Of a DNA stretch of 64,000 bases, positions 1 to 2,343 are shown piece after piece. Origin of the DNA: Streptomyces rubrogriseus (GTDB lineage: Bacteria; Actinomycetota; Actinomycetes; Streptomycetales; Streptomycetaceae). The position numbers and the translations under genes are program-made. Below the pieces are notes generated by a model. The model was given only the letters and a program-made list of their open reading frames with translations. It was not told the DNA's origin and did no database searches. Numbering within the stretch: the first letter of the stretch is position 1; the number at the start of each line of letters is the position of its first letter. The stretch is from NCBI RefSeq assembly GCF_027947575.1, contig NZ_CP116256.1:6758001-6822000 (forward strand). The letters run 5' to 3'.

Positions 1-1459
1 CGACATTGTCGACGGCCAGGACGAGACGCGGCAGGACGTCCCGCTTGCCCGCGGGTATTCCGGCGCGGGCGAGCTGGGTGCGCACCTCCCGCTCCACGCC
101 GTTCCCGCCGCTCCCCACCGCCGTGAAGTCGATGACCACGGGGGCGTACTGGGAGTCCAGACCATAGGCGGTGTGCGTCAGCCACTGGAGCGTGCTCGTC
201 AGCCCGCTGTACTCGTCGCCGACGATGACGAAGTGCCGGTACTCGGACAGGCTGGCCCGCAGGTCGTCGGGGGTGATCCTGCCGTCCTCGAGATCCGTCA
301 GTGCCAGGTACTGGTCGACCGGCAGGTGCAGCAGGACGGGGGGCACCAGCAGGCCGTCCATGTCCAGCTGCCACCGGTCCGGGCCCGCCATGAGCAGGCT
401 GCGTTCGCGCACCGCGTCCAGAAGGAACTCGGCGGCCAGGTCCGCGGCGGTACGGGTGACGGCCACCTCCTCCGACGCCGGGGAGCGGACGGGTCGGCCG
501 CCGGGTGCGTCGAAGTCGATGACCTGCTTGCCCCCGGGCATCATGTCGACGCCCTGGTCGAAGGCGTCCCTGGCGTCGAAGTAGCTCCGCACGTGCACGG
601 TGTAGGCGTGCGGGGCGCGGGGACGGTCGACGTCCACGACGCTGTAGGCGTTGAAGTAGTCACGCGTCTGGTAGAGCGAACCGGCCGCGCTGTGCATGAG
701 CGTGCCGGTCCTGCTCACGAGACCGAGCGGATCGACGACGTGGACATGACCTGTACACAGCATGTCGAACCGGCTCGTCTCCCTGCGTACGTCGTGGCGG
801 TCGAACTCCGCGAGCCAGTCCAGCGGGTGGTGCATCACGCAGATCTTCAGGTCGGCGTCGCCGAGCCGGTCGGCGGCGTGGACCACCTGCCGGTCTCCCA
901 CGATGAGGTGGGCCCGGTCGGCGTCGTCGCCCGCCCCGGTCGCCCGCCAGGCCGACGTCAGGGTGGCCACGGCGACCTCACTGTCGCGCAGCGTGAAGCG
1001 GTGGAGGGTGACCAGCGGGGAGGACAGGTCGACGTCCGTGCCCGCGTAGTAGTCGTTCCTGAACTCCAGCCACGGGGCCATCCGGCCCAGGTAGGCCGTC
1101 AGGTTCGGCGCGTCGAGGAGTCTGTTGACCGCGTCCCGGTTGTTCAGCCCCGACCGGAGGCCGTCTTCCTGGAACTGGTCGATCCTGCTGATGTCGACGT
1201 CGTGGTTCCCCGGCGCGAGGAGCATGCGGCCCCGGTCGAGGCCCAGCATGTCCTGCAGCGGATCGAGCAGCGCCTCACGGGCGAACGCGAACTGGTCCGG
1301 CTGCGCGCTGAAGGCCAGATCGCCGCTGAAGACCACCGCATCGACCGGTGCCTGCTCGTGGAACCCGCGCACGTCCGTCAGGAAGGCCTTGAGCACCTTG
1401 CTCTGATCGGGTTTCCAGTCCGCCCTGGCATGCAAGTCGCTGATGTGAACGATCCGCAC
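1..1459 (-). CDS. Calcineurin-like phosphoesterase fused to a P-loop NTPase-like region (3' end outside window)
   Basis: My translation gives 486 codons with no stop before the window edge, so the protein continues beyond it. Residues 1-290 are a metallophosphoesterase with the full metal set visible: SDLH (D8, H10), SGD (D47), GNHD (N85, H86), MHHP (H210) and GHVH (H238, H240). From about residue 405 a second domain begins: VIVGDEYSGLTS (411-422) sits where a Walker A loop is expected but has Leu in place of Lys, and LVLAVDNV (479-486) looks like a Walker B strand. Such fusions with NACHT/STAND-like NTPases are typical of bacterial conflict proteins; this is family inference. The GTG start at 1459 is preceded by GGGAGG. 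The gene is divergent from the SLATT protein across 200 bp. The phosphoesterase call is sure; the NTPase call is tentative because only its start is visible. Confidence 0.8.
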   Translation of the reverse strand, partial: MRIVHISDLHARADWKPDQSKVLKAFLTDVRGFHEQAPVDAVVFSGDLAFSAQPDQFAFAREALLDPLQDMLGLDRGRMLLAPGNHDVDISRIDQFQEDGLRSGLNNRDAVNRLLDAPNLTAYLGRMAPWLEFRNDYYAGTDVDLSSPLVTLHRFTLRDSEVAVATLTSAWRATGAGDDADRAHLIVGDRQVVHAADRLGDADLKICVMHHPLDWLAEFDRHDVRRETSRFDMLCTGHVHVVDPLGLVSRTGTLMHSAAGSLYQTRDYFNAYSVVDVDRPRAPHAYTVHVRSYFDARDAFDQGVDMMPGGKQVIDFDAPGGRPVRSPASEEVAVTRTAADLAAEFLLDAVRERSLLMAGPDRWQLDMDGLLVPPVLLHLPVDQYLALTDLEDGRITPDDLRASLSEYRHFVIVGDEYSGLTSTLQWLTHTAYGLDSQYAPVVIDFTAVGSGGNGVEREVRTQLARAGIPAGKRDVLPRLVLAVDNV

Positions 1460-1659
1460 GAAACACCCCCGCCTCCCGGACAACGCGTCTGCCAGCTTAC
1501 GCGCGGCCCGCAGGGAAGATCCCCGTCGCGGAACCCATGTCCTGTGTTCCGACGAGGAGTTGACCCCGTGACGACAGGCGGGCGGAGCCCGCATAGCATG
1601 CCCTCCTGCCGCCGTGCGCCGCACGGCCGGCCAGTCACACGGGCACACAGGGGGCGGGC

Positions 1660-2343
1660 ATGATCGGCAAACGCAGGGCTGCGGACATGACAGTCGCAGA
1701 ACTGACCGAACTGGACCGTTCGCGCCCGCGGGCCGATGTGCTGCGGGAGTTGTTCCGGCACGCGGAGGGCGAGGTGGTCACGGCCATCGGCTGGTACCTG
1801 GCGCGGCGTCGCGGTCCCTCCCGGTGGTCCCGCTCGCTGCGCGCCCTCGCCGCGCTGCTGGGCATCGTCGGTACGATCACCCCGCTGGTGCACGCGGCCG
1901 ACCCGACGGCCGTCCCGGCCGAATGGGGCTTCGTCTTCCTGGCCGGGGCCGCGGGCTGCGTGCTCTTCGACCGGATCTTCGGCTTCTCCGCGTCCTGGAC
2001 CCGCTACATACGCACCGAACTGGCCCTGCAGCAAGTCCTGAAGCGGGCGCAGGCCGAGTGGACCCAGCACTTCCTCAAGAGCACGGACTCGCCCAGTGAC
2101 AAGGAGACGGCCGCTCTCCTCGGGGTGATCGAGCGGCTGCGCGCGGACGCCCAGCGCCTCCTGGAGGAGGAGAGCGCGGCCTGGATCGGCTATCTGGCGG
2201 ACGGGATGGAGGAGCTCACCCGCTCCACCGCGCACGCCGCCGGGCAGCGGCCGGGCCCCACCGGCGTGTTCCGGCTGGACCGGCTGCCCGGGCGCGAGCG
2301 GACGGTCGACCCGGCGCAGCGCACCCGCGACCCGGCCCTGTGA
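1660..2343 (+). CDS. SLATT-type two-transmembrane protein
   Basis: The protein has 227 aa. An amphipathic N-terminal helix ending in GWYLARRR (about 44-51) is followed by two hydrophobic helices at about 58-78 and 88-106, then a long charged helical region and a disordered Pro/Arg-rich tail. This order (helix with a WY motif, two membrane spans, cytosolic helices) is that of SLATT domains, which comparative genomics predicts to be pore-forming effectors partnered with nucleotide-sensing proteins. No enzyme motif is seen. It is divergent from the phosphoesterase-NTPase gene, which fits an effector/sensor pair, but the pairing is inference. A second ATG lies nine codons downstream (1687). Family assignment is by pattern only. 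Confidence 0.7.
   Translation: MIGKRRAADMTVAELTELDRSRPRADVLRELFRHAEGEVVTAIGWYLARRRGPSRWSRSLRALAALLGIVGTITPLVHAADPTAVPAEWGFVFLAGAAGCVLFDRIFGFSASWTRYIRTELALQQVLKRAQAEWTQHFLKSTDSPSDKETAALLGVIERLRADAQRLLEEESAAWIGYLADGMEELTRSTAHAAGQRPGPTGVFRLDRLPGRERTVDPAQRTRDPAL

Follow-up and report, generated by a model that had tools for sequence, protein, structure and literature searches.

Each half of the gene pair analyzed here, as well as the general idea behind it, is already known. DS-8 of Escherichia coli is a validated defense protein in which, according to PMC13092281, both the metallophosphatase site and a NACHT residue are needed for defense. Calcineurin heads on STAND proteins are recorded in PMC8195603 (eLife 2021), and PMC7159879 (eLife 2020) describes GAP1-N1 GTPase systems with calcineurin-type phosphoesterase effectors that, several times, come together with a SLATT gene. 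In the latter work, SLATT is predicted to be a nucleotide-responsive pore; the pore role and its trigger are likewise given as predictions in PMC9503650 and PMC12483538. The locus described here lies at the left edge of a 64,000-nucleotide window (G000:C1:6758001-6822000) of the Streptomyces rubrogriseus genome (G000, a single contig of 8.41 Mb) and consists of a gene for a calcineurin-type phosphoesterase (hereafter MPE) fused to a STAND module and a divergent gene for a two-span SLATT membrane protein. What appears to be new is a dedicated pair with a STAND module that conservedly lacks the P-loop lysine. The MPE-STAND protein and SLATT probably form a little-studied phage-defense module because the pair recurs in three genomic settings including a mobile element. 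We assign a probability of about 0.6 to the reading in which the pair is a two-gene conflict module, most likely, anti-phage, with the phosphodiesterase controlling SLATT. The observations behind it are the domain content, the intact metal site, the family-wide P-loop loss, the recurrent linkage, carriage of a related pair by an integrative element, and purifying selection.

The MPE-STAND gene runs leftward from a GTG start codon (complement of 1457-1459), the position of which is kept in the aligned relatives. Its 5' part, encoding residues 1-486, occupies positions 1..1459 on the minus strand, and the gene ends 1793 bp beyond the window edge, at G000:C1:6756208 (L005:10208), so that the complete protein (P0001) comprises 1083 amino acids. 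Read to its end, P0001 is no plain phosphoesterase: the head is followed by a STAND module, recognized by both Pfam and fold searches, and by a C-terminal helical part. The head (approximately residues 2-325; 485..1456, minus strand) is delineated by Pfam PF00149, alignment, and structural matches; the Metallophos model covers residues 2-241 with an E-value of 7e-10, above its cut-off, and the structural matches are Rv0805, GpdQ, and SMPDL3A. The eight residues that we take to be the metal ligands (D8, H10, D47, N85, H86, H211, H238, and H240) are all present in the alignment, as the earlier note had read from the sequence.

The second domain opens with FVIVGDEYSGLTS, with a leucine at the position of the P-loop lysine. 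A functional Walker A motif has the form GxxxxGK[ST]; the corresponding loop of P0001, GDEYSGLTS (residues 414-422; 194..220, minus strand), is degenerate, and the P-loop-like strand without the Walker lysine that the earlier note had pointed out turned out to typify its relatives. The lysine is missing in 24 of the 25 sequences of alignment A1, P0001 counted; this alignment combines P0001 with 24 of the 29 proteins from the homolog search, with P0009 (the protein itself), P0033, P0035, P0036, and P0037 left out. Among the latter, P0033 and P0036 also lack the lysine, and P0037 has it. Judging from these sequences, loss of the P-loop lysine is a trait of the whole family. The Walker B strand, LVLAVDNV (residues 479-486; 2..25, minus strand), is cut by the window edge, and its D484 is invariant in the alignment. 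Farther along the protein, residues 646-696 match the Pfam nSTAND_NTPase4 model with 36 bits against a cut-off of 27, that is, above the gathering score, in a protein that lacks a functional Walker A motif; we class the STAND module, by its sequence, as a pseudo-NTPase. The fold search matched P0001 to NLRC4, NOD2, NLRP3, and Avs4 chains.

The nearest tested relative of P0001 is DS-8, and this kinship with a validated defense protein (PMC13092281) speaks for the candidate conflict system that the earlier note had proposed. Both proteins combine an N-terminal metallophosphoesterase with intact ligands and a STAND/NACHT module, and the DS8_antiphage model (NCBIfam NF053861) matches all 28 members of alignment A3 at E <= 0.001. 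However, P0001 scores 102 bits with this model against a cut-off of 790, with residues 5-451 covered; its P-loop, GDEYSGLTS, lacks the lysine; and it is adjoined by SLATT in each of the four close loci, unlike DS-8, which makes up a system by itself. Membership in DS-8 is ruled out by the score and the SLATT co-gene, and P0001 is, on this comparison, a distant relative. The lysine may vary inside DS-8 as well because, of the two proteins that exceed the DS-8 cut-off, P0037 (848 bits) contains the GK signature, and P0036 (1063 bits) does not.

Other described systems resemble the locus in part. The PADLOC candidate model PDC-S60, which has no description in the library and the name of which retrieved no paper in our literature search, matches residues 1-642 of P0001 with 164 bits and also matches P0031, P0033, P0034, P0036, and P0037; SLATT matches no PADLOC model. 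Unlike the GAP1-N1 systems, the phosphoesterase of S. rubrogriseus is fused to a STAND module, and no GAP1, GASH, or DO-GTPase was detected among the seven flanking genes scanned, and membership was rejected on this basis. The iSTAND proteins of the MoxR-vWA systems are, by their description in PMC7159879, similar in consisting of a catalytically inactive STAND and N-terminal effector domains; the same seven genes include neither MoxR nor vWA, and membership was rejected. With the Avs-type STAND proteins and nucleotide-binding leucine-rich-repeat receptors, there is likeness of fold only: the whole-length TM-scores are low, the P-loop of P0001 is not intact, and the effector head is different. 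We found no description of the MPE-SLATT pair in a literature search that mostly did not extend to subscription papers, and the search returned no relevant paper linking SLATT with a metallophosphoesterase or metallophosphoesterase-NACHT proteins with phage defense.

The second gene of the pair (1660..2343, plus strand) encodes a 227-residue protein of the two-span SLATT type, as originally proposed, identified by Pfam PF18183 (1.5e-23; 84 bits against a cut-off of 25), NCBIfam NF033633 (176 bits against 40), the structure model, and hydropathy. In the AlphaFold2 model (mean predicted local distance difference test score of 77.5), there are long additional helices, and the final 33 residues are of low confidence; two helices of membrane length lie within residues 51-80 and 88-107, the best hydropathy windows begin at residues 62 and 91, and the membrane spans are placed at approximately residues 59-80 and 88-107. 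The protein is thus predicted to possess the two membrane-spanning helices and the helical soluble part by which SLATT_2 is defined. A search of the PDB with the SLATT profile gave no match up to an E-value of 1, and a fold search with the model gave none at E <= 0.001, with helical bundles such as BAR domains in the top rows. The two starts face outward from a divergent intergenic region of exactly 200 bp (1460..1659), the distance given in the earlier note. This region is about 71% identical to those of the two nearest named loci (in a 241-bp query that included the gene ends); a promoter scan of positions 1400-2420 detected no sigma-70-like site, and a repeat scan gave three short inverted repeats only. 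Neither open reading frame (ORF) is a chance ORF, given that the guanine-cytosine (GC) content by codon position (0.72/0.43/0.93 in MPE and 0.72/0.54/0.92 in SLATT) follows the pattern expected in a high-GC genome and that each protein has full-length relatives.

The strongest support for a functional connection comes from linkage. SLATT is the divergent neighbor of MPE in all four close loci with readable context, namely, S. rubrogriseus, the two nearest named loci, those of S. sp. cf386 and S. viridochromogenes NRRL 3413, and the genome G107, with gaps of 200, 195, 191, and about 300 bp, respectively. The first three pairs occupy the same position, the cimA locus. A Pfam scan of six flanking genes to the left and one to the right in S. 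rubrogriseus identified an EamA transporter, TetR, YceI, polysaccharide lyase 8, a carboxyltransferase, the HMGL/LeuA-like cimA, and a Gly-rich protein without a Pfam match.

The G107 pair has a different setting. MPE and SLATT of G107 are 46% and 40% identical, respectively, to those of S. rubrogriseus, compared with 96% identity of the XPB helicases of the two genomes, and lie at the left end of a pSAM2-type integrative element of about 18 kb (L049, L066), which is flanked by a helicase gene and XPB. The element encodes RepSA (5e-137), a serine integrase, NUDIX, and an FtsK-like protein (the last below the Pfam cut-off); an IS30-like transposase is also seen on it (this label, like those of the helicase and XPB, was assigned by inspection). 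The genes that flank the element are about 19 kb apart in G107 and about 0.65 kb apart in S. rubrogriseus. A possible attachment repeat, similar over 84 bp (71%) to the region around the start of XPB, is located about 6.7 kb into L049. The GC content of the two G107 genes is 0.53 and 0.48, that of the element side 0.675, and that of the chromosome beyond 0.74-0.77.

The third setting is found in S. cadmiisoli (G300), where a distant MPE-NACHT protein with an intact P-loop, GEPGSGKS, is followed on the same strand, 15 bp downstream, by a SLATT gene. The product of the latter scores 264 bits with the profile of the clade, and the other fetched Streptomyces SLATTs outside the clade score at most 122. 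Close and related SLATTs therefore join MPE in three unrelated settings and in two orientations. The S. cadmiisoli genes belong to an apparent operon (L068:6683-13144) that consists of cytidylate-kinase-like, radical SAM, MPE-NACHT, and SLATT genes, in which the radical SAM gene and the one after it overlap by 4 bp. Separately, radical SAM, a P-loop domain (PF24883), and MPE are naturally fused in a single protein, P0109.

Co-occurrence was also assessed by matching contig sizes, using the longest contig shown for each 90% cluster and SLATT matches at E <= 1e-30, a procedure that may miss pairs. For 10 of the 17 nearest other MPE clusters (10 of 28 overall), the longest contig has exactly the same base count as that of a SLATT cluster (216419, 220613, 14951, 73266, 346411, 215579, 95770, 1619278, 45063, and 25600). 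With the G107 pair (P0022/P0061) added, 11 of the 17 nearest clusters, and 11 of the 28 overall, are tied to SLATT. The co-occurrence that the earlier note had anticipated is thus borne out in the four close loci, the S. cadmiisoli operon, and these contigs. Across 12 pairs, protein distances of MPE and SLATT are correlated with r = 0.93, a value not reached in any of 10000 permutations, and the coefficients within the two clades are 0.78 and 0.90, although linkage was the criterion by which these pairs were picked, and part of the correlation stems from strain relatedness or shared ancestry; for this comparison, the MPE of G107 was trimmed to its match (1043 of 1058 residues). As a control, no MPE match was detected within 1.5-kb flanks of 22 other SLATT loci (the top-scoring ones outside the clade and the core paralog of S. 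rubrogriseus itself), flanks that would miss a phosphoesterase arranged tail-on as in S. cadmiisoli.

MPE is rare. A close copy is present in 2 of the 392 genomes of a genus sample, with weaker matches in G300 and G219, and a profile search (E <= 1e-25) of a class sample of 394 genomes found MPE in G000 and G107 only; the two genus samples used in this work overlap. Among 150 relatives of G107, there was one weak new match (G766), with no SLATT in flanks of about 1.5 kb, and no match to MPE was detected in phage genome records.

Several observations weigh against the pair as a unit, and a single system is the part of the earlier note that stands only with qualification: the linkage recurs, but eight cimA loci contain SLATT alone, and no SLATT was seen at 12 of the 13 distant phosphoesterase loci. 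Eight genomes (7 of 295 and, additionally, G717) hold a SLATT ortholog at the cimA locus (74-79% identity) and no MPE, and the SLATT genes of the former seven evolve under purifying selection, with pairwise ratios of nonsynonymous to synonymous substitution rates (dN/dS) of 0.09-0.31 (the calculation included three paired and seven SLATT-only genomes, and G717 was left out). SLATT is apparently useful without a linked MPE, given this selection, and in the MPE-less genomes, it works either on its own or with a second partner elsewhere. An obligate two-gene unit is ruled out by these eight genomes. Furthermore, with three of the four close loci at the same position, these three amount to one independent context. 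Equality of contig size alone is no proof of adjacency, with the contigs of 14,951 and 25,600 bases leaving little room. By the same matching, 6 of the 17 nearest MPE clusters (P0014, P0015, P0017, P0018, P0019, and P0026) and all 11 more distant ones have no tied SLATT, and 12 of 36 SLATT clusters, our own included, are tied to MPE by locus or contig size. Among the 13 distant MPE loci (3 from plasmids, 7 from IMG/VR, G300, G219, and G766, the last with short flanks; ten plasmid records had a match, and four regions were read), SLATT was found in G300 only. The SLATT of G668, from another family, scores 130-132 bits, and no MPE match was detected within 19.9 kb. Finally, phage-challenge data for the MPE-SLATT pair were not found in the literature.

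Some of these data speak for an alternative in which the MPE-STAND protein defends by itself, like DS-8, and SLATT is an independent neighbor that has its own role and shares the spot. DS-8 is a single-gene system (PMC13092281), eight genomes keep a SLATT ortholog but no MPE, with purifying selection acting on SLATT in the seven that were measured, and 12 of the 13 distant MPE loci lack SLATT. However, SLATTs of one clade lie beside MPE in three settings and two orientations, in one case with both genes together on an integrative element, and the matching contig sizes point to more strains with both genes. On balance, we find this alternative doubtful. The SLATT tree, where each of the two deep clades contains paired rows and the unpaired rows fall inside one clade, fits ancestral pairing with later loss of MPE and is also compatible with a gain of MPE; the outgroup branches are long, and the placement of G300 is unsure. 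No MPE remnant was recognized at the SLATT-only cimA loci. In six of the seven SLATT-only genomes and in G717, the next gene is the one for the Gly-rich protein, as in S. rubrogriseus. In G121 (L048:10365-15502), SLATT is separated from the gene for the Gly-rich protein by two glycosidase-like genes (labeled by inspection), so that the MPE position takes up other genes as well.

Under the reading of the pair as a two-gene conflict module, the first gene would encode a sensor-enzyme with a dinuclear-metal phosphodiesterase head as the effector, a Lys-less STAND, and a C-terminal helical candidate sensor, and the second gene a two-span SLATT membrane protein, the candidate executor. The C-terminal part of P0001 would sense a cue from the invader; the STAND module, considering its conserved loss of lysine, might switch state or cluster the heads without ordinary ATP hydrolysis; the phosphodiesterase, by its fold and ligands, might cut a nucleotide or cyclic nucleotide; and, after the published predictions for SLATT, the change in the nucleotide would open SLATT in the membrane so that growth stops. 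A more specific version, that of an immune sensor without ATP hydrolysis, in which the conserved pseudo-P-loop STAND controls a cyclic-nucleotide-type phosphodiesterase and formation of the product or removal of the substrate gates a dedicated SLATT channel, we put forward only tentatively. If correct, it would imply a phosphodiesterase-to-SLATT signaling axis; in another lineage, the same pseudo-STAND body would bear a SIR2 head instead, and a cousin with an intact P-loop would travel with SLATT and a radical SAM gene.

The phosphodiesterase could also act in the opposite direction, as an off-switch that destroys the signal opening SLATT and is itself turned off upon sensing of the invader, in a guard or antidote arrangement. 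The fold match to Rv0805 is in its favor given that Rv0805-type relatives degrade cyclic nucleotides, and divergent gene pairs are common among regulator-toxin sets. However, a nearby MPE is not needed to silence SLATT because eight genomes keep an intact SLATT without one, which rules out MPE as a linked antidote required for this purpose; moreover, the catalytic residues of DS-8 are needed for defense (PMC13092281). We consider such an off-switch improbable. Even less credence can be given to a housekeeping enzyme-membrane pair involved in nucleotide or phosphate metabolism or in stress, with no role in conflicts. In favor of this reading is a second SLATT_2 gene of S. rubrogriseus (G000:C1:260896-261462; L040, within L078; 338 bits by the Pfam model), which adjoins recR/ybaB-like ORFs (labeled by inspection). 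SLATT matches at E <= 1e-10 are present in 278 of 295 genomes of the genus, so this paralog beside the recR/ybaB-like genes is apparently core to Streptomyces, and SLATT proteins, accordingly, are not confined to conflict loci. In contrast, MPE is patchy (the close copy in 2 of 392 genomes), evolves fairly fast (dN/dS of 0.27-0.35 in three genomes), lies on an integrative element in G107, and is kin to a validated defense protein.

SLATT genes are found at a number of predicted defense loci. The conflict module proposed here is a small natural set, an enzyme and a membrane protein, for asking whether the product of a phosphodiesterase or the loss of its substrate opens SLATT. It ties the newly validated DS-8 type of defense enzyme to a membrane partner, and its conserved STAND without the Walker lysine bears on the question whether such sensors always need ATP hydrolysis.

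Effector heads appear to be swapped on the STAND body. P0033 is a SIR2-headed relative that shares the STAND part, with the same Lys-less loop, and the plasmid NZ_CP142144.1 of Rhodococcus sp. PD04 (L052:6912-10118) encodes a SIR2 family protein with a later part akin to the P0001 STAND module; the gene for this protein is flanked by several transposases. Another head swap is seen in G219 (L069:6917-10726), where no SLATT was detected in 17.8 kb and where a 1269-residue protein carries the phosphoesterase head on an HSP90-type ATPase-like body (the ATPase label was assigned by inspection).

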